Part shown: positions 6,877 to 25,531 of the stretch, piece after piece
Numbering within the stretch: the stretch's first letter is position 1
Layout of the letters: every line of letters starts with the position of its first letter
Origin: Thermomicrobium sp. CFH 73360
Lineage (GTDB): Bacteria; Chloroflexota; Chloroflexia; Thermomicrobiales; Thermomicrobiaceae
Reading direction: 5' to 3'
NCBI RefSeq assembly: GCF_023806465.1
Contig: NZ_JAMSLS010000008.1
Location: forward strand, 352 to 63,650
DNA: 63,299 nucleotides
Notes under the pieces: model-generated
The model's input: only the letters and a program-made list of their open reading frames with translations
The model's database searches: none
Told to the model about the DNA's origin: nothing
Made by a program: the position numbers and the translations under genes

Positions 6877-7335
6877 GTGTCGTTCGACCTGCGGCTCTGG
6901 TTGCTTATTCTGGTGAGCGCACTACTGCTGGTCACCATCGAGTTAACAGAAGACTATTTGGAGCGGAGTTGGCCGCGCGTACGTCGGCCAGCTAATGGCT
7001 GGGCTTCGTCGGAGGGGGTGCAGCAACTTTGGACAGTGGTAGGCGCGTTGGTTTTCCCAGGTATCGTTTTGCTTCTCTTGAATCTTGCTGTACTTGTTTG
7101 GCGTGACTTGTCTTTGACCCCGGTCTTGGTGCTGGGCGCGATGCTCATCGGCCTCGGCTGGGCCGGATACCTGCTACTGATCAGCCAAATCGGCGGACTC
7201 GATGATTATCTCGAAGGGATTGGAGCGACACTTCCGCTCGCACTGATGGCCGTCCTACTGGTCGGTGATCTGCTCCTCCTGATCGGTTTCCTTAGCTCGT
7301 TACCGGACGTCTCTCTGCGGCGATTGTTGCCCTAA
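6877..7335 (+). CDS. Hypothetical four-helix integral membrane protein
   Basis: A 152-residue protein with about four hydrophobic spans: residues 7-24, 52-75, 80-102 and 118-142. The short polar linkers include 'GGLDDYLEGIG'. Start GTG 6877 is supported by GGAGG about six bases upstream. No domain is recognised. Its last 44 bases overlap the convergent rex gene. There is no clear operon partner, and the upstream 258 bases hold only a small CACCAA/TTGGTG hairpin after the lyase gene. Confidence 0.7.
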   Translation: MSFDLRLWLLILVSALLLVTIELTEDYLERSWPRVRRPANGWASSEGVQQLWTVVGALVFPGIVLLLLNLAVLVWRDLSLTPVLVLGAMLIGLGWAGYLLLISQIGGLDDYLEGIGATLPLALMAVLLVGDLLLLIGFLSSLPDVSLRRLLP

Positions 7336-8005
7336 GCGCTGGAACTAAGGTCGCGTGTCCGTTCTCCTCTGAGCGATATCCATTTTCGCGAACATAGTAC
7401 GTCATGCTCTGGAGCATACTGATCGGGTCAATTTCGCGTACTGTGACATCGGGGGGAACGTGGAGGACCACGGGAGCATAGTTAAGGATGGCCCGCACTC
7501 CGCCTGCCACAAGACGATTGGCGACTTCTTGTGCCGCCTCTGCCGGAACAGCAATGATGCCGATGCGGATGCTCAGCTCGCTGATGACCCGTTCGATCTC
7601 AGTCTCGGGGAGGACAACTATTCCGTTGACAACTTGACCAACGTGCTCTGGATTCTTAGCGAAGATTGCCGCGATCCGGAAGCCGTTTGGCTCGAAGCCG
7701 CGGTAATGGGCGATGGCTTGACCGAGATTTCCATATCCAACGAGCGCCACATTCCAGACCCGATCGAGCTGCAGCACACCTTCGAGTTCGCGGATGAGTG
7801 CCTCAACCGAATAACCATAGCCCTGTTTGCCGAAACGGCCAAAGTAGGAGAGGTCGCGTCGGATCTGTGCCGCAGTCGAGCCGAGCTGCTGGGCGAGCTC
7901 TTCGGACGAGATTGTTCGCCAGCCGTCACGATGCAGCTGGCGGAGGGTCCGCAAGTACAGTGGTAAGCGTCTGATGACGATATCAGGAACCGCTCCGTTG
8001 CGCAC
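7292..8005 (-). CDS. rex: Redox-sensing transcriptional repressor Rex
   Basis: A DNA-binding homodimer that senses the NADH/NAD+ ratio; NADH releases it from DNA. The 237-residue protein has an N-terminal winged helix ('SSEELAQQLGSTAAQIRRDLSYFGRFG', recognition helix around residues 40-55, then 'GYGYSVEALI') and a Rossmann domain with 'NVALVGYGNLGQAIAHY', and 'FAKNPEHVGQVVNGIVV'. The late 'NYAPVVLHVPPDVTVREIDPISMLQ' is diagnostic. It lies 98 bases downstream of nadE on the same strand. A near-perfect Rex operator occurs at 25477-25494 in front of the ACIII operon. GTG 8005 is the start, with AGGAAAGG upstream. Confidence 0.95.
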   Translation of the reverse strand: MRNGAVPDIVIRRLPLYLRTLRQLHRDGWRTISSEELAQQLGSTAAQIRRDLSYFGRFGKQGYGYSVEALIRELEGVLQLDRVWNVALVGYGNLGQAIAHYRGFEPNGFRIAAIFAKNPEHVGQVVNGIVVLPETEIERVISELSIRIGIIAVPAEAAQEVANRLVAGGVRAILNYAPVVLHVPPDVTVREIDPISMLQSMTYYVRENGYRSEENGHATLVPALRATIAAERRPVTS

Positions 8006-8103: not shown

Positions 8104-9864
8104 TCAACCGCGGAACCAGTTCGCGATAGGCAATCGGCGATCGCGGCCGAAGGCGCGCGGCGTGAGCTTGACCCCTGGTGCCGCTTGACGTCGCTTGTAT
8201 TCCGCGCGATCGACCATTGCAATGACACGATCGACAATTTCGGGATCGAACCCCTCACGGATCAGTTCCTCTCGCCCCATGTCCTGCTCGACATAGAGTT
8301 CGAGCAGTGGATCGAGGATCTCGAACGGCGGAAGGGTGTCGACGTCTTTCTGATTGGGGCGGAGTTCCGCGGAAGGGGGTTTTGTGAAGACGCGCTCGGG
8401 GATGACCGGCGACAGACTATTGCGATACCGCGCCAGTTCGTAGACGAGAAGCTTCGGAACATCCTTGAGTACTCCGAATCCCCCAGCCATGTCGCCATAC
8501 AATGTAGCGTAACCGCAAGCCATCTCAGACTTGTTGCCGGTTGTCAGGACGATCGGCCCAAAGCGATTCGAGTAGGTCATTAGGATCGTTCCACGGATAC
8601 GGGCCTGGAGATTCTCGTCAGCGACATCGGGTTCTTCGGGTTGGTTACCCAACGGTGCAAGTACCTCGCGGAAGACGCGGTGTACTGGCTCAATGGGAAT
8701 GACAATGAAGCGGATTCCGAGATTGCGGGCGAGCGCTTCAGCATCCTCCATACTGTGCCGCGAAGAATACCGGCTTGGCATCGAAAGACCGGTTACATTC
8801 TCCGGCCCAAGGGCGTCTGCTGCGATGCAGGCTGTCAATGATGAGTCGATGCCGCCCGAGAGGCCGATGACCGCGGTACGGAAACCCGTCTTGCGCACAT
8901 AGTCACGGACGCCGGTCACTAGTGCTTGGTAAATCTCGGCGGTTCCCTCAAGGGGTATCCGTTGTCGGCGGACATGCTCCGGCAGCGATGGGAGCTGTCC
9001 ATCTGGCACCGGCAGCGGGATCTCATGGTCAATGACAGGGAGCGTGGGATGCGGCTCGGAGCGTGCAAGCCACCGTCGGCGGGGATCGTGGAGCCAACTG
9101 GAAAGCACACGCGTGACAGGCAGATCAACGATAATAAGGTCCTCGTCGAACGAGGCACCTCGGGCGAGAACTGTCCCGTTCGGGTCAAGGACGAGACTGT
9201 TCCCGTCGAAAACAAGCTCGTCCTGACCACCGACCATATTGACGTACGCGAGATAGCAGCCGCAATCTGAAGCACGCGTTTGGAGCATCGTCTGACGCTG
9301 TTGCCACTTTCCACGGTGATATGGGGAACCGTTGATGTTGACCAGAAGGTCGATTCCCTGTGTGGCGAGGCTGCTGGCTGGTCCCACGGGGTACCAGATA
9401 TCCTCGCAGATCGTCACGCCAAAGCGCAGATTCCCCCAGAGGAATCGATACGTCTGCGTCCCGCGAGCAAAATAGCGATCTTCGTCGAAGACACCATAGG
9501 TCGGCAGGTGGTGCTTGGGTACGACGGCGACGAGCTCGCCGCGGGCGAGGACGGCCGCTCCGTTGTAGAGCATGCCGCCTTCCACCCAGGGGACACCGAC
9601 GATGAGCACCCGATCAGGGACGACATCGAGGAGCTGAAGGAGTGCACGGCGGGCTGCCTCGACGAAGCTCACCTTGAGGAGGAGGTCTTCTGGCGGATAG
9701 CCAGTGATGACAAGCTCTGGAAAGGCGATAATGGAGCTGCCAAGTTCTGCTGCCTGCCGTGCTAGGTCACGAATCAATCGGACGTTCCCAGGAAAGTCCC
9801 CAACCGTTGGATCGACTTGTGCCAGTGCAATCCGCCAGGTATCGCGTGTCACTTCGTCTGCCAC
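8104..9864 (-). CDS. nadE: Glutamine-dependent NAD+ synthetase
   Basis: Makes NAD+ from nicotinate adenine dinucleotide, ATP and glutamine. The 586-residue protein has an N-terminal nitrilase-type amidase with the Glu-Lys-Cys triad visible in 'FPELVITGYPPEDLL', 'VVPKHHLPTYG' and 'GVTICEDIWYP'. The C-terminal synthetase has the PP-loop 'GLSGGIDSSLTACIA' and 'TTGNKSEMACGYATLYGD'. GTG 9864 is preferred because the protein begins there (ADEVTRDTWRIALAQ) after GGGGGAAGG; the frame continues upstream to 10053 into the recN region. The next gene on the same strand is rex, so the enzyme that makes NAD and the protein that senses its redox state are probably co-transcribed. Confidence 0.95.
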   Translation of the reverse strand: MADEVTRDTWRIALAQVDPTVGDFPGNVRLIRDLARQAAELGSSIIAFPELVITGYPPEDLLLKVSFVEAARRALLQLLDVVPDRVLIVGVPWVEGGMLYNGAAVLARGELVAVVPKHHLPTYGVFDEDRYFARGTQTYRFLWGNLRFGVTICEDIWYPVGPASSLATQGIDLLVNINGSPYHRGKWQQRQTMLQTRASDCGCYLAYVNMVGGQDELVFDGNSLVLDPNGTVLARGASFDEDLIIVDLPVTRVLSSWLHDPRRRWLARSEPHPTLPVIDHEIPLPVPDGQLPSLPEHVRRQRIPLEGTAEIYQALVTGVRDYVRKTGFRTAVIGLSGGIDSSLTACIAADALGPENVTGLSMPSRYSSRHSMEDAEALARNLGIRFIVIPIEPVHRVFREVLAPLGNQPEEPDVADENLQARIRGTILMTYSNRFGPIVLTTGNKSEMACGYATLYGDMAGGFGVLKDVPKLLVYELARYRNSLSPVIPERVFTKPPSAELRPNQKDVDTLPPFEILDPLLELYVEQDMGREELIREGFDPEIVDRVIAMVDRAEYKRRQAAPGVKLTPRAFGRDRRLPIANWFRG

Positions 9865-10002
9865 CGTCGCTTCCTTCCCCCTTCTTGGCGATTGTCGCTT
9901 GTTTCTCAGTGTAACAGCGGTCAGCTGTGCTCGGTGCCGTACAATTTGAATCAGCATCCGGAACGAAGCGGCCCGAACGGGCTCGGATGGATCGTGAGGA
10001 CA

Positions 10003-11748
10003 ATGTTGCTGCAACTCACAATCCGAAACATTGCAATCATCCGCGAAGTCCAAGTGGAGTTCGGCCCGGGTTTCACCGCGCTGACTGGGGAGACCGGCGC
10101 TGGAAAGTCAATCCTCATCGATGCGTTGGGGCTCGTGCTCGGAGCACGTGCCTCGAGTGATCTCGTGCGCAGCGGCGCGTCGCGTGCCTGGGTCGAGGCG
10201 ATCTTCGACGTCTCTCAGCTTAGTGCAACCGGGTTAGCCGCGGCACTTGCTGAGTCTGGAATCGTGCCGGAGGACGATCAATTGATCCTTTCCCGAGAAG
10301 TGCAAGCGAACGGGCGCAGTATCGCTCGAGTGAACGGGCAGGCTGTGCCGGCCGGGGTGCTTGCGACGATCGGCGCAGCTCTGGTCGATATTCATGGGCA
10401 GAGTGACCATCTCTCGCTTCTCAAGACTGAACGGCAGCTTGAGCTCCTCGATCGGTTTGGCGGATTGCTCCCGCTGCGCAGTGAATTGGCACGAGCAGTT
10501 CGTGAGTTTCGCGCGACGCTCCGCGAACTTGACCAGTTACGGGCCCAGGAGCGCGATCGAGCGCATCGCATCGACTTCCTGCGGTACCAGCTCCAAGAGA
10601 TTACGGGTGCTCGGCTGCGGCCGGACGAAGAGGAGGAACTCCAGCGAGAGCGAGCTCGTCTGCAGAATGCTGAGCGTCTCGCGATGCTCGCCGCAGAGGT
10701 CGTCGCCAACTTGGACGGCGAAGACGACACACCGTTGGACGCGCTGCGGCGTGCAAGCTTGCGATTGGAGGAACTTGCACGCTTGGATCCCGACCAGCAA
10801 GGGCTTGTTGGGCAGCTTCGAGAAGCACTCTATAGTATTGAAGATGTCGTGCGAACGATGCGGGTGTACGCGGAGACGGTTGAGTCTGACCCCGATCGTC
10901 TGGCAGCGATTGAAGACCGACTCGAATTGCTCAGACGCCTCAAGCGCAAGTATGGCGCGACGGTCGAAGAGATCTTAAGCTACGCTGAGCGGGCGCGACG
11001 AGAGTTGGAGACGCTGGAATCGAGTGATGAGCGGATCGCTGAGCTGGAGGCGCGGGCCGAGGCGCTCGCGGCTGAGGTGGTTCAGCGCGCAGAGGAGTTG
11101 AGCCAGCGTCGGCGCAGAGCGGCTGTCGACTTGGAACGCGCGATGAGCGAGGCGATGCGGGCGCTGCGGCTTGGCCAAGGACGATTTACCGTGCTCTTTG
11201 ACGATTCGGCTCGCCTGGAGTCGATTGTCGGGCGTGCTGCGACCTGCAGTGAAAGCGGTTGGGATCGGGCGGAATTTCTCATCGCGCCAAATCCGGGTCA
11301 GGAACCGCGGCCACTCGCGCGGATTGCTTCTGGTGGTGAGATGGCACGGTTGATGTTGGCCTTGAAATCGATCTTGTCTGAGGTGGATGAGACGCCGACA
11401 CTGGTATTTGACGAAGTTGATGTGGGGATCGGAAGCCGGAGCGCACAGGTTGTGGGTGAACGGTTGTGGGAACTCGCCCAACGACACCAGGTCATTGTGA
11501 TCAGCCATCTTCCACAGATCGCAGCGTTTGCGGATCGACACTATAAAATCACGAAGCATGTCGAGGAAGGAACGACGGAAACTCTTGTCCACGAACTCCG
11601 TGGAGAAGCGCGCCTGGAGGAGCTGGCAGCGATGATGGATGGCGTGCCGATCACCCCAGAGTCGCTGGCGAATGCACGGGCGATGGTGGAGCGCGTGGAG
11701 CAGCGGAAGGCGGCGCTCGCGGGCATCCGCGTCAGCTCGAACCGGTGA
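10003..11748 (+). CDS. recN: DNA repair protein RecN
   Basis: An SMC-like ATPase of double-strand break repair. In 581 residues it has the Walker A 'GETGAGKSILID' near the start, a long coiled-coil middle rich in Glu/Arg (roughly residues 160-380), the ABC signature 'ASGGEMARLMLALK' and Walker B 'TLVFDEVDVGIG'. ATG 10003 follows GTGAGGAC closely and begins the conserved 'MLLQLTIRNIAIIREV'. The 138-base region shared with divergent nadE holds TACAAT (9940-9945), a possible -10. I see no obvious SOS box. It is followed by ybaB and the LLM genes with short gaps, suggesting one transcript at least to 13 kb. Confidence 0.95.
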   Translation: MLLQLTIRNIAIIREVQVEFGPGFTALTGETGAGKSILIDALGLVLGARASSDLVRSGASRAWVEAIFDVSQLSATGLAAALAESGIVPEDDQLILSREVQANGRSIARVNGQAVPAGVLATIGAALVDIHGQSDHLSLLKTERQLELLDRFGGLLPLRSELARAVREFRATLRELDQLRAQERDRAHRIDFLRYQLQEITGARLRPDEEEELQRERARLQNAERLAMLAAEVVANLDGEDDTPLDALRRASLRLEELARLDPDQQGLVGQLREALYSIEDVVRTMRVYAETVESDPDRLAAIEDRLELLRRLKRKYGATVEEILSYAERARRELETLESSDERIAELEARAEALAAEVVQRAEELSQRRRRAAVDLERAMSEAMRALRLGQGRFTVLFDDSARLESIVGRAATCSESGWDRAEFLIAPNPGQEPRPLARIASGGEMARLMLALKSILSEVDETPTLVFDEVDVGIGSRSAQVVGERLWELAQRHQVIVISHLPQIAAFADRHYKITKHVEEGTTETLVHELRGEARLEELAAMMDGVPITPESLANARAMVERVEQRKAALAGIRVSSNR

Positions 11749-12113: not shown

Positions 12114-13088
12114 ATGAAGCTCGGGATCATGGTGGAGGGGCAGGAAGACGTTACCTGGGAGCGCTGGCTGCGCGTGGTGGATCTTGCCGAGGCCCTTGGT
12201 TTCGATTCCATTTGGCGCTCAGATCACCTCACTTCGGTCGTTGGAGCTTCAGAGCGGGCTTCCCTTGCACTGTGGCCGTCGTTGACCGCGGCCGCGCTTC
12301 GTACGAAGCGGATTCGCTTCGGGCAGCTCGTCTCTCCGGTGACTTTCCGCCATCCAGTAGAACTCGCCCAGCATGCGGTTGCGCTCGACCATCTCTCTGG
12401 AGGACGCTATGTGCTGGGCATTGGTGCGGGATGGTTCGAACGGGAACATCGGGCGTTCGGCTTTGTTCTACCGCCAGTTCGTGAGCGTTCAGAGCGTCTA
12501 CGCGAGGCGCTAGAGGTGATTCGGCTGCTGTGGAGTGGAGAGCCAAGAACCTATCGTGGGCAACATTTCTGTCTTGAACAAGCTGTTCTCCGGCCACGGC
12601 CGCTTCGTCCGAGTGGCGTCCCCATCATGATTGGGGGAGGTGGAGAGCGAAAGACGCTGCGCCTTGTGGCTGAGTTCGCTGACGAGTGGAATCCAGGATT
12701 CACCGATCCAGATGGATTCCGTCGAAAGGACGAGCGTCTTCGCGCTTACTGTTCGGAGTTGGGCCGTGATCCTGCGACTATTCGGCGAACCTTGATGGCA
12801 GGATACGTCATCGGCCGGACGGAGGCGGAGCTCCGGAAGCGAGCGATGCGGCTCCAAGAATATTTGACTGGGGAGCAACCACTGTACTTCACGCGACGTT
12901 ACGAGGCAGATGAGTTCTTAGCCGAATTGCGCCGGCGTTCGTGGTTCGTCGGGCGGCCTGCGGAGATTGTCGATCAGCTGCGAACGTGGGCTGCACTCGG
13001 CGTCGACCTGGTCATGCTCCAGACGCTTGATCTCGACGATATCGACCAGATTGAACTGATCGCCCGCGAAGTCCTACCACACGTGTGA
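12114..13088 (+). CDS. LLM class flavin/F420-dependent oxidoreductase, copy 1
   Basis: A luciferase-like TIM-barrel monooxygenase or F420-dependent dehydrogenase of 324 residues. Motifs shared with its two neighbours are 'GQEDVTWERWLRVV', 'SDHL', 'FGQLVSPVTFRHPVELA', 'DHLSGGRYVLGIGAGWFEREH', 'GVPIMIGGGGERKTLRLVAEFADEWNPGF' and 'DLDDIDQIELIAREVLP'. The GGGGE turn and the DHLSGGR block belong to the flavin or F420 binding site in this family. Start ATG 12114 follows GAGGAAG. It is the first of three consecutive paralogs. Substrate is unknown, and whether FMN or F420 is used cannot be told from sequence alone. Confidence 0.9.
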   Translation: MKLGIMVEGQEDVTWERWLRVVDLAEALGFDSIWRSDHLTSVVGASERASLALWPSLTAAALRTKRIRFGQLVSPVTFRHPVELAQHAVALDHLSGGRYVLGIGAGWFEREHRAFGFVLPPVRERSERLREALEVIRLLWSGEPRTYRGQHFCLEQAVLRPRPLRPSGVPIMIGGGGERKTLRLVAEFADEWNPGFTDPDGFRRKDERLRAYCSELGRDPATIRRTLMAGYVIGRTEAELRKRAMRLQEYLTGEQPLYFTRRYEADEFLAELRRRSWFVGRPAEIVDQLRTWAALGVDLVMLQTLDLDDIDQIELIAREVLPHV

Positions 13089-13144
13089 GTTCGGAAAGTG
13101 CGTCCAGTGGTCAGGACAGGGTTTTTGCGCGTTTTATAAAGTTC

Positions 13145-13150
13145 TAAAAT
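13145..13150 (+). promoter_or_regulatory. Possible internal -10 element before LLM copy 2
   Basis: TAAAAT (13145-13150) lies in an unusually AT-rich patch of the 128-base gap between LLM copies 1 and 2, 17 bases after TTTTTG. It could give copies 2 and 3 their own promoter. The -35 match is poor. Confidence 0.35.
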
Positions 13151-13216
13151 AGCGAGGCTCCTGTGTTGGAATGGTGATGCGCGGGGCGCGTTTGTGGTTG
13201 GGAAAAGGACAGTCGC

Positions 13217-14185
13217 ATGCAACTTGGAGTGATGGTGGCCATCCAGGAAGACGTAACCTGGGAGGGTTGGCTGCGAGTAGTCGAGCATGCGGAGCGCCTA
13301 GGCTTCGAGTCGGTCTGGACCTCCGATCACTTATGGACCGTCTTTCCAGGAGCTGCACGCGAATCCCTGGCGATGTGGCCGGCGCTCACAGCGGCGGCGC
13401 TGCTGACCTCGCGCGTGCGCATTGGGCAGCTTGTCTCACCGACCACCTATCGGCACCCTGTCGAACTCGCGCAAAATGCAGTCGCGCTGGATCACCTCTC
13501 CGGCGGACGGTACATCCTTGGGATCGGGGCAGGTTGGCAGGAGCGAGAGCATCAGGCGTTTGGATTCCAGCTCCCGCCACCTAGTCTGCGGGTCGAGCGG
13601 CTACGGGAGAGTCTGCAGATAGTCCGGGCGTTGTGGCGTGGCGGGCCGGTGCACCACAAAGGCCGCTTCTTCTCGCTGGACGGTGCGGTGCTTCGTCCGA
13701 CTCCCCTCCGTGGTGAAGGGGTGCCGATTCTGATTGGAGGTGGAGGAGAACGGCGCACACTTCGCGTGGTGGCGGAGTTTGCTGACGAATGGAATCCCGG
13801 ATTCGTCGATCCGGAGTCGTATCGTCGGAAGAATTCGATTCTTGAAGAGTTCTGCCGGGAATTGGGTCGGGATCCAGCGTCGATCCGCCGAACGCTCATG
13901 ATGACCTCTGTGATCGGGCGCTCGCAAGCCGAGCTCCGAGAGAAGGCGTTACGGTTCGCGCATTGGCGAGGAGAAGACCGAGATAGGCCCGATCCAGAGC
14001 GGATTCTTGAGGAGCTACGACGGCGGTGGTGGCTGGTTGGCACACCGCGGGAGATCGTGAGCCAAATTCGGGGTTGGGCGGCATTGGGTATTCAACGAAT
14101 CATGCTGCATTTGTTCGATCTAGACGACGTGGACGGCTTGGAACTCATGGCGCGAGAAGTGCTCCCCGCTGTCAGTCGTTCGTAG
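13217..14185 (+). CDS. LLM class flavin/F420-dependent oxidoreductase, copy 2
   Basis: A 322-residue paralog of copy 1, colinear from end to end: 'IQEDVTWEGWLRVVEHAE', 'TSDHLWTV', 'DHLSGGRYILGIGAGWQEREH', 'GEGVPILIGGGGERRTLRVVAEFADEWNPGF' and a tail 'FDLDDVDGLELMAREVLPAV'. ATG 13217 follows AAAAGGA by seven bases. It is separated from copy 1 by 128 bases and from copy 3 by 89 bases. The main differences from copy 1 are in loops after residue 210, the region that shapes the substrate pocket in this family, so the copies may have different substrates. Confidence 0.9.
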   Translation: MQLGVMVAIQEDVTWEGWLRVVEHAERLGFESVWTSDHLWTVFPGAARESLAMWPALTAAALLTSRVRIGQLVSPTTYRHPVELAQNAVALDHLSGGRYILGIGAGWQEREHQAFGFQLPPPSLRVERLRESLQIVRALWRGGPVHHKGRFFSLDGAVLRPTPLRGEGVPILIGGGGERRTLRVVAEFADEWNPGFVDPESYRRKNSILEEFCRELGRDPASIRRTLMMTSVIGRSQAELREKALRFAHWRGEDRDRPDPERILEELRRRWWLVGTPREIVSQIRGWAALGIQRIMLHLFDLDDVDGLELMAREVLPAVSRS

Positions 14186-14274
14186 AGAGTGCCGGCGGCG
14201 TAGTGGTCGCTCCGCCCTGATGGCACGGAGCAGGCATTCCTAGAAACGAGTCGGTGTCCGGAAGGGAGTAGCGA

Positions 14275-15237
14275 ATGCGAATCGGCATTATGGTCGAGGG
14301 TCAGGAGGATGTTACCTGGGAGCGCTGGTTCCGTGTAGTGGCACTTACGGAGGAGCTCGGCTTTGATTCACTGTGGCGGTCCGATCATCTCTTCTCGGTT
14401 ATCGGCGTGGTCGAGCGCGAGACCCTCGCGCTCTGGCCATCACTCACTGCAGTGGCGCTGCGCACGACTCGGATCACCTTTGGACAACTCGTTTCACCGG
14501 TGAGTTTCCGGCATCCGGTCGAACTTGCTCAGCATGCGGTGGCGCTCGACCATCTTTCCGGTGGGCGATACGTCCTCGGAGTAGGCGCCGGGTGGTACGA
14601 GCGAGAGCACGAGGCATTCGGATTTGCGTTGCTCTCGGTGCGGGAGCGGATGGAGCGTCTGGCTGAAGCACTTGAGGTGATCCGCCTCCTCTGGACGGGT
14701 GAGGTTGTCTCTCATCAGGGAACATACTACCAGCTTGTACAGGCGCAGCTTCGTCCTCGGCCGTTGCGTGAGGCTGGCCTGCCTATCGTGATCGGTGGGA
14801 GAGGAGAGCGCCGTACGCTACCGCTTGCAGCAAGGTACGCGGCCGAGTGGAACGTCACGAATGTTGGCGTGGAGGAGCACGCGCGCAAGGTTGCACTCTT
14901 GCATGAGCATTGCCGGGCGATTGGGCGAGATCCGGAGACGGTCGTCTGTTCGTGGATGGTAGCGCACCTTATCGGTCGCGATGGCTCGGAGCTGGAGGAG
15001 CGAGCTCACCGGTTGCGGCGGTGGTTCCCCTTCTGGAGTACGCTGAGCCCCGCAGAGGTGATCGCGGAGGCGAAGCGGCGCCATTGGCTCGTTGGTACGC
15101 CTGAGGAGGTTCTTGAGCAGATCCGGGCACGTGCCGCGATTGGTGTCCGCCGTCTCATGCTCCAAACCTTCGACCTTGACGACGTCGATGCACTCCGCTT
15201 GATCGCGACGGAGATTGTGCCGGCTGTCGCCCAGTGA
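14275..15237 (+). CDS. LLM class flavin/F420-dependent oxidoreductase, copy 3
   Basis: A 320-residue paralog, closest in its N-terminal half to copy 1 ('EGQEDVTWERWFRVVALTEE', 'FGQLVSPVSFRHPVELAQHAVALDHLSGG'). It departs from copies 1 and 2 in the cofactor-site turn, which reads 'GGRGERRTLPLAARYAAEWN' rather than 'GGGGERRTLRVVAEFADEWN'. ATG 14275 is preceded by GAAGGGAG. The 3' end converges on the FAD oxidoreductase gene with an 18-base gap. The diverged site suggests a changed cofactor or substrate preference, which is inference. Confidence 0.9.
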   Translation: MRIGIMVEGQEDVTWERWFRVVALTEELGFDSLWRSDHLFSVIGVVERETLALWPSLTAVALRTTRITFGQLVSPVSFRHPVELAQHAVALDHLSGGRYVLGVGAGWYEREHEAFGFALLSVRERMERLAEALEVIRLLWTGEVVSHQGTYYQLVQAQLRPRPLREAGLPIVIGGRGERRTLPLAARYAAEWNVTNVGVEEHARKVALLHEHCRAIGRDPETVVCSWMVAHLIGRDGSELEERAHRLRRWFPFWSTLSPAEVIAEAKRRHWLVGTPEEVLEQIRARAAIGVRRLMLQTFDLDDVDALRLIATEIVPAVAQ

Positions 15238-16821: not shown

Positions 16822-17323
16822 CTTATCCTCCTTGTGGATCGAGTGCCACCTTCAGCTATATGGCATCGTCGCTGACAACGCAGCGGTTTGCAAGAGCGTG
16901 GTGGCTCCGCGTTACTGCGTTGCTCACGGGCATCATGGGACGAGTTCGGACCACTCTGTTCTCCATTCGCTCGTCCTTCATCGAGTGCAGGTGGGGGTGG
17001 TTGGACGGTAAAGGGGCTCCAGTGTGGTCAAAGATGTGGCAGTGGGGGACTATGCTGCTGCAAGCTGTGGATGTTTGGGGAACGGACTCTTTTCCTGCCG
17101 GCAGTCTTCCTCCCGGACAGCGCTGACGTTATCCGCGGTGCGAGGGGGCGTACTGTGCGTAGCAAAGGGGTTGAGGTCACAGCGGTGCTGCCATGGATGG
17201 TAGGGGATGTCGACACTGTTCGAGTCGAGAAAGGGCGTGAAACAGCGCACGAGGGGCTGGAATGGGACTGGCACCGCGATGCGGTGAGGAATGCGCACTG
17301 TGCCACGGAGTTCGAGAGTATGC
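16822..17323. other. Intergenic stretch, no gene seen
   Basis: Frames exist on both strands, the longest a plus-strand 175-codon frame at 16888-17415, but they are low-complexity, lack ribosome sites and overlap the end of actE. I see no recognisable protein, RNA gene or repeat apart from the hairpin listed next. Confidence 0.5.
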
Positions 17324-17380: not shown

Positions 17381-17977
17381 TTATGGCTGCTGTTGGAGCT
17401 GACGGATGTAGCTGACCAGCGCCCAACGCTGCTCGGGAGTGAGCAACTTGCCGAACCCGGGCATGTTCGTTAGGCCACCGGGATATTGGGTCTGGTGCTG
17501 GGGTGAGGTGTAGCCATTGGTCAGGATCCAGTACAACTCTCCATCGGTGCGGGCGACGACTGCCGGATCCTTAAGGTTGGCTGGCGGTACGGCGCCCTGC
17601 ACGAGGCCCCAGTACACCGCGAGTGGTCCCTTACCATCCCCTTGCGGACCGTGGCAGGCGACACAGTTAACCTGGAAGAGTTGTTGCCCACGAGCCGCAG
17701 CTTGAGGATCGTTGGCCAGGGGATTCTGGAGATTGCGCGCTTCTTCGAAGGTGTACTGCGGCTCCCCGCCAGTGATCGGAACAACCCCAGCAGGGATGTC
17801 AAGTCGGGGCGGCTCCTGGGCACGGAACGAGTTCTGATAATGCATTTCGCTAAAAAAGTCAATAGGATAGGTGTTGCTCGAGACACAAGCACTGCCGAGA
17901 ATGGTGAGCAGCGAACCTGCCAGCACTCCGAGTAGGAAACGGCGGCTCAGACGTGAGCTGAAGAACTGCCACATCAT
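17381..17977 (-). CDS. actE: Alternative complex III monoheme cytochrome c subunit ActE
   Basis: A 198-residue membrane-anchored cytochrome c that passes electrons from the quinol-oxidising complex to the terminal acceptor. It has a lipoprotein signal ending in 'LTILGSAC', the ActE hallmark 'PIDFFSEMHYQNSFRAQEPPR', the heme c motif CVACH ('FQVNCVACHGPQGDGKGP') and a probable axial Met in 'LTNMPGFG'. ATG 17977 follows GAGGGAG. It is the last gene of the ACIII operon, 20 bases after actD. The length and single heme match ActE of Rhodothermus and Chloroflexus. Confidence 0.92.
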   Translation of the reverse strand: MMWQFFSSRLSRRFLLGVLAGSLLTILGSACVSSNTYPIDFFSEMHYQNSFRAQEPPRLDIPAGVVPITGGEPQYTFEEARNLQNPLANDPQAAARGQQLFQVNCVACHGPQGDGKGPLAVYWGLVQGAVPPANLKDPAVVARTDGELYWILTNGYTSPQHQTQYPGGLTNMPGFGKLLTPEQRWALVSYIRQLQQQP

Positions 17978-17997: not shown

Positions 17998-18537
17998 TTA
18001 GCCCCGTGCCGGCTGTTGCCCGGCCTTGCTACCCTCGGTGAGGATGTCCTCAGGATTTGCCTTGCGGAGGGCTTCGATGGCGCGCGCTTCGCGCTCCGGT
18101 GCGGTGCGGACTAGGATTCCGATGTATCCCTGCGTAATGCGCGGATCGTAGAGTGCGCGACCGATCCAAGGAAGGCGCGATTCAAAGAGCACGCCGAGTA
18201 CCGTGAAGATGAGGGCACCGAGCATCGTGCCCTCGTACATGATGATGATCATCGGAGGAATGGACAGGAGTGGTTTCCCTCCAGTCATGAGAGGGAAGGA
18301 GAGCTGCGTGCCGCCAGTAATGAGAAGACCAGCAGCGAAACCGCAGGCCGCTCCGATGAGGGGGAAGACGAAGAGTCGGTGAATACCAGACTCTTCACCG
18401 AAGGTCCCCTCAGGGTACGGTGCGTTGGAGAGCACCTCGAATTCGTTCCGGCTGAACCCAGCCTCGCGGAGCGCATCGGCTGCCGCCACTGCCGAATCGA
18501 GATCGCGGTAGAGTCCGAGAACTTCACGAATGGCCAT
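17998..18537 (-). CDS. actD: Alternative complex III subunit ActD (DUF3341)
   Basis: A 179-residue subunit with two transmembrane helices (about residues 54-76 and 93-118). The start 'VLGLYRDLDSAVAAADALREAGF' is the DUF3341 soluble ferredoxin-like part, and 'YPEGTFGEESGIHRLFVFPLIGAACGF' leads into the first helix. It contributes a structural membrane part of ACIII and binds no known cofactor. It lies between actC (33-base gap) and actE (20-base gap) on one transcript. Confidence 0.92.
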   Translation of the reverse strand: MAIREVLGLYRDLDSAVAAADALREAGFSRNEFEVLSNAPYPEGTFGEESGIHRLFVFPLIGAACGFAAGLLITGGTQLSFPLMTGGKPLLSIPPMIIIMYEGTMLGALIFTVLGVLFESRLPWIGRALYDPRITQGYIGILVRTAPEREARAIEALRKANPEDILTEGSKAGQQPARG

Positions 18538-18570: not shown

Positions 18571-19944
18571 TTAGAACTCCCGCACGATCGCGTTGACCAC
18601 GCGCTTACCCACTTGCAGCTGCTGTGCGAAGTGCTGTCCTTCTTTCTCCTCCCAAACCGAGATCGGTGGGAAGATCTTGGAGAACACGAGCAAGAGGAAT
18701 CCGACCAACGCGAAGGACCCAAGGACGATGCTGATCTCAACGATCGACGGCCGGTACCAGTTCCAATCAAAGGTAAATTCATACTTTCGCATGAGTCCGG
18801 GCTTAATAAGCCAGTAGCGTTCGGCCCACATGCCAACATTCACGAGGATCGAGGTCCAGAACATAATCTTCACGTTGCGGCGGAAGCGCTGGAAGATCCA
18901 GATGGGAACTGGGATGAAGTAGCCGAAGATAAAGATGAGAGCAGTGAAGACATTGAATGGCCACTCAAAGAGGCGGAAAGTCATGATCTCTGTCTCGCGT
19001 GGTTCCTGGGGATAGATCGCGAAGAAGATGTCGAGGAGGAAGAACCAGAGCCAGCCGGTTCCGACGGCGATAAGGAGCCGGCCGATCGCGTCGAAGTGCT
19101 CGAGCCGGATGTAATGATCGAACCGGAACAACCAGCGCATCAATGCCATAAGCGTGACAACCGCGGAGACACCAGAGTGAATAGCTCCGATAACGAAGTA
19201 CGGTGCGAAAACTGTCGCATGCCAGGTTGGAACCAGCGAAACAGCGAAGTCCCAGGACACGATGGAGTGGACGGAGACGAAAACCGGCAAGATGAGACCG
19301 GAAAGCAGGAATCCAGCAATCGTCTGCATCTTCCACTGGCGTTCGTTCCCACGCCATCCCAGAGCGAGAATGGTGTACAGCACCTTACGCCAGCCGGTGG
19401 TGCGGTCGCGGGCGAGTGCCATGTCGGGGATCATCGTCGTGTAGAGGAAAAGCGTCGAACCGGTGAGGTATGTCAAGATCGCGCTCGGATCCCAGACGAG
19501 CGGGCCACGGACGTCCGGCCAGAGGTTACGCCAGAAGTCGTAAGGGAAGACCCAGTAAAGGGTCCGCCAGGGACGGCCGGTGTGGATAACAGGGTGGAGC
19601 ATCGCCGTCATGAGGCTAAAGATTGTCATTACCTCGGCGGCGCGAGTGACCGGTCGGCGCCACTCTGCTTGAGTGAGACGAAGAATTGCCGAAATCATCA
19701 CGCCGGCGTGACTAATACCGATCCAGAACACGAAGTTGACGATCATGAAGCCCCACATGTTCGGGCGTTGGAGGCCAGTGACGCCGAGGCCCCAGTAGAA
19801 CATCCAGCTCACTGCGAACACAAAGATGGCGAGTACGGCGCCCAGGCCGATGAACCCAACCCACATCATCGGGGTCGTTGTGACAAGCGGTCGCAGGAGT
19901 TCTCGCGTAATTTCCTCTTCACCGAGCCGATGACGCTCTTGCAT
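18571..19944 (-). CDS. actC: Alternative complex III quinol-binding NrfD/PsrC-like subunit ActC
   Basis: A 457-residue integral membrane protein with about ten helices, expected to hold the quinol site of ACIII. Signature stretches are 'WIGISHAGVMISAILRLTQAE', 'RRPVTRAAEVMTIFSLMTA', 'HPVIHTGRPWRTLYW' and 'SVHSIVSWDFAVSLVPTWHAT'. ATG 19944 is preferred to 19974 because AGGGGG lies seven bases upstream. It directly follows the second NrfD-like gene (44-base gap). In Rhodothermus ActC comes right after ActB; here the ActF-like gene is placed between them. Confidence 0.92.
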   Translation of the reverse strand: MQERHRLGEEEITRELLRPLVTTTPMMWVGFIGLGAVLAIFVFAVSWMFYWGLGVTGLQRPNMWGFMIVNFVFWIGISHAGVMISAILRLTQAEWRRPVTRAAEVMTIFSLMTAMLHPVIHTGRPWRTLYWVFPYDFWRNLWPDVRGPLVWDPSAILTYLTGSTLFLYTTMIPDMALARDRTTGWRKVLYTILALGWRGNERQWKMQTIAGFLLSGLILPVFVSVHSIVSWDFAVSLVPTWHATVFAPYFVIGAIHSGVSAVVTLMALMRWLFRFDHYIRLEHFDAIGRLLIAVGTGWLWFFLLDIFFAIYPQEPRETEIMTFRLFEWPFNVFTALIFIFGYFIPVPIWIFQRFRRNVKIMFWTSILVNVGMWAERYWLIKPGLMRKYEFTFDWNWYRPSIVEISIVLGSFALVGFLLLVFSKIFPPISVWEEKEGQHFAQQLQVGKRVVNAIVREF

Positions 19945-19988
19945 CGTATTTCCCCCTGCCTTGCTCTCCTGCACTCAACCGTGAGCGA

Positions 19989-21383
19989 TCATTCTGGCTT
20001 CCCAATGACGATGAGGCGTGCGTGTTTAAAGGGCTTGTGGGCACGCAACCAAAGGCCGCCGGCCACCTCTGCGACTGACGGGAAGGGAAGGTAGCGCGCT
20101 GCCCAGAAAATGAGTGCTAAGGCTCCGGCAATCATGCCAACGAGTATGAGGATGTCACCAATCCCCGGGATGTAGGCAGCGGGAAGGGTTTTGAGTTCGT
20201 GAGCATGGCCAAGTAAAGCGCTATCAGGTTGAGAAAATGCAGCGGAGGTGAGTCGGATGCGATCGATGAGGTTCCCGACGAGGACGATGGCCCCTACGAC
20301 TGTTGGGCCAGTGATACTGCGCCGAATGGGGTTCCACATCAGGATGAGGAGTGGCAAGGCGAAGTTCAAGGCGAACGAGAGAATGAAGGGCCATCGATAG
20401 GTTTCAGCCATGAGAAGCTTCAAGATCTCAATCTCACGGGGGGTTCGACCATACCAGAAAATGATGAACTCTGACCACCAGAAGTAGAACCACAGCAGTG
20501 AAAAGGCGAGAAGGAGCTTGCCGAGTGCCCAGAACTGTTCACGTCCCAAGTAGTCGGTCTGGCCTCCCCAACGCCGCAACACCGCCATTGTGACGATGGT
20601 TAAGGCGATTCCCGCTTGAAACGAAGTAATCGTAAAGTACGCCGGGAAAACGGCAGTGAAGTAGCCGGGGATAAGCGCAATGATGAAGTCGGAAGCAAGG
20701 ACGGTCATAGCCGCGACGTAGATCAGCACGTACAGGACACCGATATTGTTCACAACCTTTTCATAGAAGCGCCATTGCAGGTGAGAGCCGATCCAACCAC
20801 GGCTTAGCCAGGCCGCCAGGCCGCGCTGCGCCGGCGCGCCGTGGTCTCGCACGATAGCGAGATCCGGCAAGCTACTGAACCAGGCGAACAGATAGCCGGC
20901 CCCAGTGAGTGTGAGCATCAAAATGGCTCCCCAGAGCCACGGCGAGAGTGGCCAGCCGAACCAGATCGAGAGCCGGTCCTCGGTGCCGGGAAAGGTTGGG
21001 AGCAAGAGGAGATACAGCAAGAAGGGAATGATGAGTGTCACACCCCAGATCTCCGCCGCCCGGTTGACTGGTCGACGCCAGTGACTGCGTGCCACCCGGA
21101 GTGCCGTGGAGAGAGCCGGCGCCGCGGCTGCAGTCGACATCAAGTACAGAAATGCTGCAGCGACGTACGTCCAGGCTTGTCGGTTCGCGAACCCCTGCCG
21201 CAGGGGTATTACTACGATCGCAATGATCCCGACGACGAACAGGAGGAGACAAATGAGGAGGGGTGTGCGTAGGCGCCGTCCGACCTCTCGGAGCCAGCCG
21301 AGCGCGCTCCCAAGGACGTCGGACGGTGTGAGCTCCCAGGTTCGCTGGAGTTCGTGTCCGTGCGCGTGACCGTGCGTCGCCAT
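19989..21383 (-). CDS. Alternative complex III second NrfD-like membrane subunit (ActF-like)
   Basis: A 464-residue membrane protein with about ten helices, related to ActC. It opens with a His-rich cytoplasmic N-terminus ('HGHAHGHELQ') and keeps 'RRPVNRAAEIWGVTLI', 'FAWFSSLPDLAIVRDHG' and 'WWSEFIIFWYGRTPREIEIL'. It is called ActF-like because it is the second NrfD protein of the set. Its place directly after the iron-sulfur subunit differs from the canonical operon, where ActF is near the end. ATG 21383 follows GAGGTGAGGG by three bases. ActF probably supports the membrane part of the complex. Confidence 0.85.
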   Translation of the reverse strand: MATHGHAHGHELQRTWELTPSDVLGSALGWLREVGRRLRTPLLICLLLFVVGIIAIVVIPLRQGFANRQAWTYVAAAFLYLMSTAAAAPALSTALRVARSHWRRPVNRAAEIWGVTLIIPFLLYLLLLPTFPGTEDRLSIWFGWPLSPWLWGAILMLTLTGAGYLFAWFSSLPDLAIVRDHGAPAQRGLAAWLSRGWIGSHLQWRFYEKVVNNIGVLYVLIYVAAMTVLASDFIIALIPGYFTAVFPAYFTITSFQAGIALTIVTMAVLRRWGGQTDYLGREQFWALGKLLLAFSLLWFYFWWSEFIIFWYGRTPREIEILKLLMAETYRWPFILSFALNFALPLLILMWNPIRRSITGPTVVGAIVLVGNLIDRIRLTSAAFSQPDSALLGHAHELKTLPAAYIPGIGDILILVGMIAGALALIFWAARYLPFPSVAEVAGGLWLRAHKPFKHARLIVIGKPE

Positions 21384-21413: not shown

Positions 21414-22142
21414 TCAGTGGGCACCTGCCGGTGCCGTGGTTGCCTCGATATCAATCTTCTTGAGGTAGTACACCTTTGGATCGGTGCCAAGGTCTTCTAG
21501 GAGCCGGTACACGCGATGCTCTTTCTCAGCTTGCGCAAGGAGCTGGCTCACGGCGCTGTTCGGATCGTCCAGGTCGCCGAAGACGATCGCGTTGGTGGGG
21601 CATGCCTGCGCGCATGCCGTTGTCACCTCGTCGGTTCGCAAAGCACGCCCTTCCACTTTCGCCTTCTGCTCGGCTTTGACGATCCGGTGCACGCAGAAGT
21701 TGCACTTCTCCATCACACCACGGCTACGCACTGTCACGTCAGGATTGAGCTGGTTCTTAAGTGAATCGGGCCACTTGGGCTCCCAGAAGTTGAAAAACCG
21801 GACATGCCAGTGGCAGTTGATTGAACAATAGCGAGTGCCGATGCAGCGGTTGTACACCTGCATGTTGATGCCTTCAGTCGTGTGATAAGTGGCATAAACC
21901 GGACAAACCGGCTCACACGGGGCGTTGGTGCACTGCATGCACGGCACCGGGATGTAGCGAGCCTTGACGTTGGGAAACTCGCCCTCCCAATAGCGCTCAA
22001 GGCGAATCCAGGCGATAGCACGGCGTTGGTGATAGACGTCTTCGGTATTGATGGGAACATTGTTCTCTGCCTGACAGGCGACGACGCAGGCACCGCAGCC
22101 GATACATCGATCGAGGTCGATCACCATTCCCCAGCGTGGCAT
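21414..22142 (-). CDS. Alternative complex III iron-sulfur subunit (C-terminal ActB equivalent)
   Basis: A 242-residue four-cluster ferredoxin-type protein. The Cys ligands are seen in 'CIGCGACVVAC', 'CMQCTNAPCEPVCPVYA', 'CIGTRYCSINCHWHVRFFNF', 'CNFCVHR' and 'CAQACPTNAI', a pattern consistent with three 4Fe-4S clusters and one 3Fe-4S cluster. In Rhodothermus and Chloroflexus this is the C-terminal part of a fused ActB; here it is a separate gene 36 bases after the molybdopterin-like subunit. It carries no signal of its own, so it is presumably exported with the Tat-borne subunit. Confidence 0.92.
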   Translation of the reverse strand: MPRWGMVIDLDRCIGCGACVVACQAENNVPINTEDVYHQRRAIAWIRLERYWEGEFPNVKARYIPVPCMQCTNAPCEPVCPVYATYHTTEGINMQVYNRCIGTRYCSINCHWHVRFFNFWEPKWPDSLKNQLNPDVTVRSRGVMEKCNFCVHRIVKAEQKAKVEGRALRTDEVTTACAQACPTNAIVFGDLDDPNSAVSQLLAQAEKEHRVYRLLEDLGTDPKVYYLKKIDIEATTAPAGAH

Positions 22143-22178: not shown

Positions 22179-24422
22179 TCACGCCGACGGAGCCATGACG
22201 CGCACGATCGGGAACTCCTCCAATTGGAACGCTGGCACCATACCCTCGAATCGAGCCAGTCGTGCGCGCCGTCCCGTCTTCTCAATCCGACAACGCGTCG
22301 CGCACCAGGCCAGCGTACCGGCATCACCATCATTCTCAGGTGCGGCAAGTGTGAGTGGGTTGACGCCTCGGCCTTCGGCATAGCGGCCGAGAGCGGTATG
22401 ACCCTGCCCGAATGGGATCGCAACGAGGCCTGGTTGACCCGCCGGGTTGACGTACACCGGAAGCTCGACAGTTGCCTGCGGAGTAATCAGACGAACGACG
22501 TCGCCGGTCGAGAGGCCGAGTTCGTCGGCTGTCCGTTGAGCGACCTCCACCCAACTCTGCCAGACGTTGGTGCTAACTGGTTCCGGCAACGCTTGGAGCC
22601 ACGGCAAATGCGCGAGCTCTCCATAGCCGATCGCGGGGAGCGGGTAGGGAACAAGGAGATAGGGAAACTGAGCACTGTCCCCAGCGAAAGACGGCTCGCG
22701 AGGCTGCACAACGGGAGAGCTCGGCACAGTACCGCTGCCGCGCGACTGCTCGTCCCACCATCCGCCCTGAGCTTGGAGGGTGACGAGGAATTGCTTGTCG
22801 TCCGCTGCCTGGATATTGCCCCTCCCAAGTCGGCGAAGCTGGAGAGCGAGCGTCTTTGTCGCCTCTTCTTGGGACGCCCAGGGGAGCGGCTGGCCAAGCT
22901 GCGTAGCCAGCTGGATGAGAACGTCACCGAAGGCGTGGGCATCGACGAACGGTTGGACGACGGGCTGGCGGACGGCAACCGCAGCAAAGCCAGGGCCTGG
23001 GTCGGGAACCTCGAGCCCCCACTGTTCCAGCCAGGCTTGGTCGGGTAGCACGATATCCGCGAGTTGCGTCGTTTCATCCACAAAGGGGGAGAAGCTCACG
23101 ACGTGCTGAGCCGCGCGCAGGGCTTCCGCGGCACCGGTCGCTGGCGGAAGGGCGTAGACCGGGTTTGCACGGTAGACGAGAACCGTGCTAATCGCGCCCG
23201 ACTGGATCTGTTGGAAGAGCTCAGCCCACTGTCTCTGCGTCAGGATCGCGTCGTCCGCAATGCGGAGTTCGGGAAGCGGAGGCTCCGGATTCAGCAGCAG
23301 CCCTCCCGGCTGGTTCAATGAGTCGAGAAGAAGATTGAGACCCAGAGTAGCGACCAGGTTGAAGAGACCATTCGTCGATGCTGCAGCGTTCGTCCCGGCG
23401 ATGACGACTGCAGGCTCGTGCTCGACCAACGCGTGCGCCAGTTCGCGGATTTGCTCCGCGGTCAGTCCGCTCGTCGTGGCGACCCGCTCGGGACTGTAGT
23501 CGTTGGTTAATCGTGCCTCGTCGAGGCCGAGTGCGGCGAAGTATGGGGCGAATCGATCACGTGGCACGGCACCCTCAGTGAGGAGGACGTTGGCAATGGC
23601 GAGAGCAATGAGCCCTTCGGTACCTGGCACGATCGGGAACCACCGGTCAGCGTTGGCTGCTGTCGCGGAAAGACGCGGCCCCACATGGTAATAGAGGCCA
23701 CGCTGACCTGGACGCCCCTGCCGAAACTCTCCGTAGGCTCGTGCGAGTTGGACCGGCGCGATCCAACCGTGGAGAAACTCGGCGCCGAAGTTCAAAAGGA
23801 AGGACGCATTCGCGAGATCTGGGATCGGCAGCGTGCTGACGCCAAAGAGCCGGCGCACAGCTGAACGCAGCACGACCAGCTCGTCAGGTTCCAAAATGGC
23901 ATGCCGTATTCCCGTCACACGCTGGAATGCCGCAATGATTGCCGCCTGCAAGCTGCTCGGCCGAGTGGTGATGAGAACAGCGCGCTGACCGCCTGCATCG
24001 CGGAGGATCTGGGCGACCTGCTGTAGTGCACTGTCCCAACCGATCGGCTGGAACTGCCCACTGCCGCGTGTGGTCGCACGCTGTGGTCCGGCAAGGCGAT
24101 CCGGGTGATAGAGCTCCTGAACGAGCGCCTGAGCGCGCGCGTCGCTCTTACCCCGAACTCCAGGAAAGTCAGGGTTTCCGTCGACCTTCTTCGCGCGCCC
24201 CTCGAATACCCGGACGATGAGGCCGTACCCCCCCTGATCTGGCGGCGCGGCGGTCGCGAACCAGGCATCGCGACCGAAAGCCCAATCGTTCGGGGTATAG
24301 ACCGGCTGTGCGATCTTGAATTCGGTTTCCGGCACACCGTCCCCGATGCGACCACAGCCAGCGAAAAGGACGGCGCCCGTCGCGGAAGTTGCTGCGACCT
24401 TCAGGAAATCTCGTCGCCGCAT
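22179..24422 (-). CDS. actB: Alternative complex III molybdopterin-oxidoreductase-like subunit (N-terminal ActB equivalent)
   Basis: A 747-residue subunit with a Tat signal 'MRRRDFLKVAATSATGAV' that ends in a possible lipobox LFAGC. It has the molybdopterin oxidoreductase fold but no Cys-rich N-terminal cluster motif, in line with ACIII, where this part has lost molybdenum. Recognisable are 'VDGNPDFPGVRGKSDARAQA', 'LYHPDRLAGPQ' and 'FSPFVDETTQLADIVLPDQAWLEQWG'. ATG 24422 is chosen because the Tat motif begins there; a GTG at 24449 adds nine residues. It lies between actA (48-base gap) and the separate iron-sulfur gene. Confidence 0.92.
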   Translation of the reverse strand: MRRRDFLKVAATSATGAVLFAGCGRIGDGVPETEFKIAQPVYTPNDWAFGRDAWFATAAPPDQGGYGLIVRVFEGRAKKVDGNPDFPGVRGKSDARAQALVQELYHPDRLAGPQRATTRGSGQFQPIGWDSALQQVAQILRDAGGQRAVLITTRPSSLQAAIIAAFQRVTGIRHAILEPDELVVLRSAVRRLFGVSTLPIPDLANASFLLNFGAEFLHGWIAPVQLARAYGEFRQGRPGQRGLYYHVGPRLSATAANADRWFPIVPGTEGLIALAIANVLLTEGAVPRDRFAPYFAALGLDEARLTNDYSPERVATTSGLTAEQIRELAHALVEHEPAVVIAGTNAAASTNGLFNLVATLGLNLLLDSLNQPGGLLLNPEPPLPELRIADDAILTQRQWAELFQQIQSGAISTVLVYRANPVYALPPATGAAEALRAAQHVVSFSPFVDETTQLADIVLPDQAWLEQWGLEVPDPGPGFAAVAVRQPVVQPFVDAHAFGDVLIQLATQLGQPLPWASQEEATKTLALQLRRLGRGNIQAADDKQFLVTLQAQGGWWDEQSRGSGTVPSSPVVQPREPSFAGDSAQFPYLLVPYPLPAIGYGELAHLPWLQALPEPVSTNVWQSWVEVAQRTADELGLSTGDVVRLITPQATVELPVYVNPAGQPGLVAIPFGQGHTALGRYAEGRGVNPLTLAAPENDGDAGTLAWCATRCRIEKTGRRARLARFEGMVPAFQLEEFPIVRVMAPSA

Positions 24423-24470
24423 GCCCTTCTCCAACGTCTGCCTCCTCACACCGAGACAGTCTCTGTCGAA

Positions 24471-25004
24471 CTAGTAATGGCACACCGAACAGTCAGTCCG
24501 TGCTCCGTTCTGCTGGTGACACGTAATGCAGTCACCCATGCGGAGGTCACGTACCTGCTTGACCCCAGGCTTGCCCATAGCACCAACGTCGCCGTGGCAC
24601 GTCGAGCACTGGAATCCGAAACTGAGATGTACCGAGTGCACGAAGTGGGTGTGGTCAGGAAGCTGATGCACCTTGTTCCACAGAATGGGTTGGTCCTGCT
24701 GAAAGGCCGCGACAAGTTTCTCAAGTTCTGGGCGTCCCTGCGTCGGGACGATCTTGTGGCACTGCATGCACAGTTCGAGTGGTGGAAGTGTCGCCTGAGC
24801 GGAGGTGGTGGCATTGCGGTGGCAGTAGGTACAGTCAAGACCAAGAGCTTGGACGTGGACGGAGTGCGGAAACTGGATCGGCTGTGCCTTGACCGGCTGA
24901 GCCGTTGGGGACAGGAAATACGTGCGTGCCAGTACCAGAGCAAGCGGAATTGCCATGACAACCAGCACGACCAACACGAACAAGATCAATCGGATGTACC
25001 GCAT
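24471..25004 (-). CDS. actA: Alternative complex III pentaheme cytochrome c subunit ActA
   Basis: A 177-residue cytochrome with one N-terminal membrane anchor ('LILFVLVVLVVMAIPLALVLA') and five CXXCH motifs: CTYCH, CMQCH, CSTCH, CITCH and CSVCH. That is the heme number of ActA. It should relay electrons at the periplasmic (outer) face. The last motif ends the protein. ATG 25004 is chosen because the anchor starts there, with GGAG about eight bases upstream; the frame is open to 25058. It follows the 96-residue membrane protein by 62 bases and begins the recognised act genes. Confidence 0.93.
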   Translation of the reverse strand: MRYIRLILFVLVVLVVMAIPLALVLARTYFLSPTAQPVKAQPIQFPHSVHVQALGLDCTYCHRNATTSAQATLPPLELCMQCHKIVPTQGRPELEKLVAAFQQDQPILWNKVHQLPDHTHFVHSVHLSFGFQCSTCHGDVGAMGKPGVKQVRDLRMGDCITCHQQNGARTDCSVCHY

Positions 25005-25066
25005 CCTCTCGGCTCCGTTCCTCAACCAAACCCGCCGACAACGCAGGCGATTCGGCACACCGTGGC

Positions 25067-25357: not shown

Positions 25358-25476
25358 CTCCGCTCCTCCACGTCGCCCGAGCGGGGAGCTCGGCCTGTCG
25401 CTTCCCTCCAAAGACCACAGCGGATCTTTGTGGCGCGAGTATCCACCGTGATCTTGCCGTCGTCGAGGCGCCGCAT

Positions 25477-25494
25477 CTGTGAGCGCCTTCACAA
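25477..25494. promoter_or_regulatory. Rex operator upstream of the ACIII operon
   Basis: CTGTGAGCGCCTTCACAA matches the 18-base Rex consensus TTGTGA-N6-TCACAA with one mismatch in the first base. It lies in the 222-base region between the ACIII operon (minus) and a small divergent gene (plus). For the minus strand a perfect -35 TTGACA is at 25526-25531, and the operator falls just past the expected -10 (CATCCT, 25503-25508), over the transcription start. Rex itself is encoded at 7292-8005. Confidence 0.8.
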
Positions 25495-25502
25495 CCACAC
25501 GT

Positions 25503-25531
25503 AGGATGCTCAGCAAGGCATCCTGTGTCAA
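25503..25531 (-). promoter_or_regulatory. Probable ACIII operon promoter
   Basis: On the minus strand TTGACA (25526-25531) is followed 17 bases later by CATCCT (25503-25508). The -10 is weak while the -35 is perfect. The spacer carries an inverted repeat, AGGATGC (25503-25509) with GCATCCT (25518-25524), which could be a second regulator's site. Confidence 0.5.

Follow-up and report, generated by a model that had tools for sequence, protein, structure and literature searches.

The locus raises the question of what controls transcription of the operon for alternative complex III (ACIII), the quinol:acceptor oxidoreductase of many bacteria without cytochrome bc1. In the window, by which we mean the whole 63 kb stretch of DNA that was analysed, the ACIII genes run on the minus strand from 25357 down to 17381 (Table 1); ActB is split over two genes, and no Pfam match was found for ActC (19989-21383). 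A conserved sigma70-type promoter, P1 (TTGACA-N17-CATCCT), transcribes toward the operon, and beside it lies the palindrome CTGTGAGCGCCTTCACAA at 25477-25494, which reads TTGTGAAGGCGCTCACAG on the operon strand. The original prediction took this palindrome for an operator through which the redox-sensing repressor Rex controls ACIII. Our analysis supports that reading, in that the site is conserved at ACIII promoters and the same motif stands at rex promoters, and we therefore treat it as a candidate operator. The best explanation of the sequence data, and in our judgement a probable one, is that NAD+-bound Rex would block initiation at this site and that NADH would release it.

With the start of transcription predicted from its spacing to the -10 element, the palindrome spans +3 to +20 of P1, which agrees with the earlier placement of the site at the start of the ACIII transcript; given this predicted start, the site overlaps or adjoins the promoter that it would control, as expected of a Rex operator. 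The regulator is, as first noted, encoded in the same window: the product of 7292-8005 scores above the cut-off of Rex domain models, and its DNA-binding and NAD-binding domains are both intact, as membership of a Rex regulon would call for. Residues that contact DNA in T. maritima Rex (PMC8836258) are kept in the window protein at Q46, R48, S52, G58, G61 and Y64; where the window protein departs from that set, at T43, Q60 and Y62, it agrees with the solved Rex 3wg9. Rex is present in 19 of the 21 genomes of the family, both misses being incomplete assemblies, and in 43 of 45 genomes of the Chloroflexia ACIII set outside the order to which the genome belongs.

Table 1. Features of the window around the candidate operator, the ACIII operon and rex.
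Feature	Position	Strand	Remarks
rex, redox-sensing repressor	7292..8005	minus	PF06971, PF02629 and NCBIfam Rex models above cut-off
nadE, NAD+ synthase	8104..10053	minus	directly upstream of rex, same strand
ActE, mono-haem cytochrome c	17381..17977	minus	
ActD	17998..18537	minus	PF11821
second NrfD-type subunit (ActF/ActC-like)	18571..19974	minus	PF03916
ActC, NrfD-type quinol-binding subunit	19989..21383	minus	resembles solved ACIII chains 6f0k_C, 6lod_C, 6btm_C
ActB2, iron-sulfur subunit	21414..22142	minus	QrcC-like
ActB1, molybdopterin-like subunit	22179..24449	minus	QrcB-like
ActA, multihaem cytochrome c	24471..25058	minus	cytochrome c7/c3 domains; true start probably an internal ATG
small membrane-protein ORF, 96 aa	25067..25357	minus	first operon gene; no family match; conserved upstream of ActA in relatives
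predicted 5'-terminal leader hairpin	25459..25495	minus	operator sits in the 5' arm and loop; pairing p=0.0015; two compensatory pairs
candidate Rex operator	25477..25494	none	TTGTGAAGGCGCTCACAG on the minus strand, +3 to +20 of ACIII promoter; top matrix score in window; TGTGA-N6-TCAC invariant in 14 promoters, 4 genera
predicted +1	25496	minus	7 nt past the -10 element, from spacing
P1 -10 element CATCCT	25503..25508	minus	spacer 17
P1 -35 element TTGACA	25526..25531	minus	CTTGAC conserved before the ACIII operon family-wide
divergent hypothetical gene, 126 aa	25580..25960	plus	no family match; a similar sequence precedes ACIII in other Thermomicrobium

The resemblance of the palindrome to known Rex operators depends on the consensus chosen. 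It had been described as one outer base off the Rex consensus, which stands for the short form TTGTGA-N6-TCACAA; against the fuller consensus, given as TTGTGAAN4TTCACAA in generalized form (Ravcheev 2012, as cited in PMC5317091) and as TTGTGAAW4TTCACAA for S. aureus (PMC2883068), there are two deviations and the description does not hold. The site is the only one in the window to match the short form with at most one mismatch. A pattern search of the whole genome at the same tolerance returned three matches, the same number as for a reversed control pattern, and about eight sites equally good by the scoring matrix described below are expected by chance per 3 Mb. Motif strength alone is thus not significant genome-wide, and the claim must rest on position and conservation. 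The matrix runner-up in the window, GCGTGAAACAGCGCACGA at 17235-17252, lies about 130 bp past the end of actE and is probably a chance match.

Conservation was followed through the family Thermomicrobiaceae, whose genera include Thermomicrobium, Thermalbibacter and Sphaerobacter. In all 14 promoters compared, from these three genera and G009, the core TGTGA-N6-TCAC is present at one fixed distance from the -10 element, while the flanks diverge; one Sphaerobacter promoter reads TCGTGA at the outer letters, and the Thermalbibacter site is a perfect TTGTGA-N6-TCACAA (TTGTGAAGACGCTCACAA). Across the 14 promoters and four genera, invariant positions make up 70% of +1 to +20, 13% of the -35/-10 block (the alignment is gap-free in that region, which depresses the figure for the -35 element) and 0% of the flanks, making +1 to +20 the most conserved non-coding stretch. 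The original prediction had staked itself on recurrence of the site at related ACIII promoters, and the scan bore this out, with the site in four genera and enriched in Chloroflexales, and absent from two genera, g5 and g6. In these two, which belong to the same family and possess Rex, ACIII and P1, the site was not found at P1; the presence of Rex was tried as a way to tell genera that have the site from those that lack it and proved uninformative, because Rex occurs in both kinds. Just outside the family the best candidates are weaker (TTGAGTGGACTTTCACAA at L094 and TTGATAATTCTTTCACAA at L095), and good sites were not found at distant ActA loci in Myxococcota, Bacteroidota and others.

The identity of the motif is indicated by the promoters of rex itself. 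In sister families within the order, most genomes have TTGTGAAN5[G/T]CAC[A/G]A some 130-440 bp upstream of rex, and sites like TTGTGCTACACTTCACAA, with at most two mismatches, occur at 13 of 30 Chloroflexales rex promoters, against a mean of 0.75 for permuted motifs. The occurrence of the motif at rex in both groups marks it as the Rex motif of the class. In the rex upstream regions outside the order (L271-L300), a near-identical TTGTGCTACACTTCACAA lies over the likely -10 element, forming a strongly conserved autoregulatory site. A matrix trained on 19 rex-promoter sites of the sister families, and on no ACIII site, scores 25477-25494 highest in the window, at 15.8 bits, and gives the Thermalbibacter site 21.2 bits; the ACIII site thus matches the motif that its own lineage places at rex.

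The association with ACIII also extends beyond the family. ActA was detected in 90 of the 158 genomes of the class, and 60 ACIII upstream regions were collected from Chloroflexia outside the order, mostly, by an inferred assignment, from Chloroflexales. TTGTGA-N6-TCACAA occurs with at most two mismatches in 16 of the 60; because the regions are mutually related, these counts are not independent events, the 16 matches coming from about 14 genera. When the half-site was permuted in sixty ways, with the true order among them, the mean was 2.0 and the best of the others reached 6; with the correct half-site, the spacer of 6 yields the 16 matches and any other spacer at most 4, and recA upstream regions taken as a control matched in 1 of 24. 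By the matrix, 19 of the 60 regions reached p<=0.05 against their own shuffles, where three were expected. Some of the Chloroflexales matches fall on an extended -10 element; these, of the TTGTGATATAAT type, may belong to the promoter and not to an operator. The two ACIII operons of genome G067 show no more than weak matches.

Conservation, matrix rank, enrichment in the class, the presence of Rex and the failure to find a CRP/FNR regulator together make a Rex block at P1 the best reading. When NADH is scarce, NAD+-bound Rex on +3 to +20 of P1 would keep RNA polymerase from initiating at the ACIII operon; were the respiratory chain too slow in passing electrons on, NADH would accumulate and release Rex, and with Rex off P1 more ACIII would be made for quinol oxidation towards cytochrome c. 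Binding, repression by steric block and the direction of the response are what we infer, the last of these from the known behaviour of Rex, which represses when bound to NAD+ and is released by NADH (PMC5317091, PMC8836258). These hot-spring bacteria thus likely tune the ACIII step of respiration to the NADH level, and their relatives in the class seem to do so too.

A palindrome of this kind invites a different regulator, since its core is, letter for letter, that of the CRP/FNR consensus, TGTGA-N6-TCACA. Strong-scoring CRP-type helix-turn-helix (HTH) domains do occur in Sphaerobacter, in Thermalbibacter and in one Thermomicrobium MAG, but a CRP/FNR regulator combining a cNMP-type domain with HTH_Crp was not found in the genome under study, which is 99.7% complete, nor in four other near-complete genomes that bear the site. 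All that this genome holds is a cNMP-binding protein that stands alone, lacking an HTH, and a CBS/nucleotidyltransferase-like protein; its matches to HTH_Crp_2 are partial and weak, as are those in G001, G004, G006 and G009, each of which has retained the site. Moreover, the same motif precedes rex itself across the class, and while the core letters cannot separate the two families of sites, the outer T/A of the ACIII site and its likeness to rex-promoter sites fit Rex. Binding by a CRP/FNR-family regulator is accordingly quite unlikely in our estimate. The palindrome could also be nothing but a chance match to a loose pattern, as the eight or so equally good sites expected in a 3 Mb genome and the lack of excess over the reversed pattern would allow; the same letters at the same position in four genera, and the class-wide enrichment at ACIII promoters over permuted motifs, other spacers and recA, render this extremely improbable. 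As a separate observation, the stand-alone cNMP-binding protein (L076, 1393-1869) lies in a cluster that by eye appears to be of hydrogenase type.

Inspection of the region around the operator revealed a second feature, an addition to what had been noted before. The operator's spacer can base-pair with a segment 10-30 bases further downstream, a segment that in three genera doubles as the -35 region of a second promoter, and the two are predicted to form a hairpin that begins at the predicted 5' end of the mRNA. Compared with shuffled downstream sequence, the pairing is significant in the window (p=0.0015) and in Thermalbibacter and G009 (p=0.0005-0.002), gives 0.006-0.07 in Sphaerobacter, most of which reach significance, and is not significant in four other Thermomicrobium species (p 0.08-0.24), the hairpin being weak in some Thermomicrobium. 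Changes on both sides, as expected of a structured leader, affect two of the 13 stem pairs in a comparison of only four genera: a GC pair in Thermomicrobium and Sphaerobacter is AU in Thermalbibacter and G009, and a CG pair in Thermomicrobium and Thermalbibacter is AU in Sphaerobacter and UA in G009. The covariation score of 0.191 compares with 0.092 +/- 0.018 for shuffles and tops all 500 shuffles as well as slid controls. With four genera, we regard the hairpin as a moderate claim. It may protect the mRNA 5' end or tune early elongation, a role that is less certain than that of the operator. At the same +1, the g5 ACIII promoters (L022-L024) are without a Rex-like site and show a different predicted hairpin, one with a z of -3.6 and the others weak.

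The hairpin bears on what is being conserved. Stem-loops of the ompA type at the 5' end stabilise bacterial mRNAs, and a leader structure acting in stability or attenuation could leave the palindrome as a by-product. The excess of pairing over shuffles in the window, Thermalbibacter, G009 and Sphaerobacter, the two pairs altered on both sides and the covariation all speak for such an account. However, the letters that never change, TGTGA and TCAC, are those of the operator and include an unpaired G (column 7) dispensable for the stem and the TCAC of the loop, whereas the co-varying letters sit in the free spacer of the operator; the pairing lacks significance in the four Thermomicrobium species mentioned, and the motif is seen again at promoters of ACIII and of rex in other parts of the class. 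We consider it very unlikely that the hairpin alone is under selection. The simplest reading seems to be that the operator and hairpin constraints are both real and superimposed. More tentatively, and with more doubt than conviction, Rex control of ACIII might be ancestral in Chloroflexia, with the same 18 bases in Thermomicrobiaceae doubling as DNA operator and as 5' arm and loop of the hairpin and so tuning both initiation and mRNA fate. Like ompA-type stem-loops, the ACIII hairpin is predicted to start within a few bases of +1; unlike them, it overlaps a candidate repressor operator, and such an overlap, if true, would place two regulatory constraints on one short sequence.

The ACIII site resembles known Rex operators in its half-sites and spacing, in its position near a promoter start, in standing before a respiratory operon and in the presence of Rex in the genome. 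It differs from them in its target, in one inner and one outer letter, and in lying inside a predicted leader hairpin. Our literature search found no paper that makes a link between Rex and ACIII, in keeping with the earlier suggestion that the link is new; RegPrecise has a Chloroflexi collection, in which an earlier prediction may exist. ACIII is a new candidate target of a known regulator. A proteomic study of Chloroflexus (PMC9316378) describes how ACIII switches between respiration and phototrophy and names no regulator; a Rex site that recurs at ACIII promoters across a class with phototrophs among its members provides a candidate.

Unlike known Rex systems, Thermomicrobium showed no site at rex. 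Autoregulation of rex within Thermomicrobiaceae was rejected, as a good site was not found upstream of rex or nadE in the family, and so was a Thermomicrobium-wide Rex regulon, since the motif is no more frequent than its reversed pattern and the weaker matches examined in this genome lie within predicted open frames. With neither a genome-wide excess of the motif nor a site at rex, a Thermomicrobium regulon would be very small. Rex-like sites were seen near other genes of the family. In two genomes of the Thermalbibacter genus (L151 at 2501, L152 at 2455), TTGTGAAGC[C/T]GTGCGCAA is conserved upstream of a gene whose product, by eye, resembles a molybdopterin/2Fe-2S formate dehydrogenase subunit. 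The Sphaerobacter-type genome L155 carries TTGTGAATGGCATAACAA at 2472; an ORF resembling, by eye, haem-copper oxidase subunit I follows some 1.25 kb downstream, and a similar site is found in G012. At 2481 of L153 (G009), CTGTGAAGTGATTCACAA has a LysR-type gene on one side and, on the other, an ORF followed by one judged by eye to be malate-synthase-like. Elsewhere in the window, 12114-15237 holds a tandem of three luciferase-like (LLM class) oxidoreductase genes.
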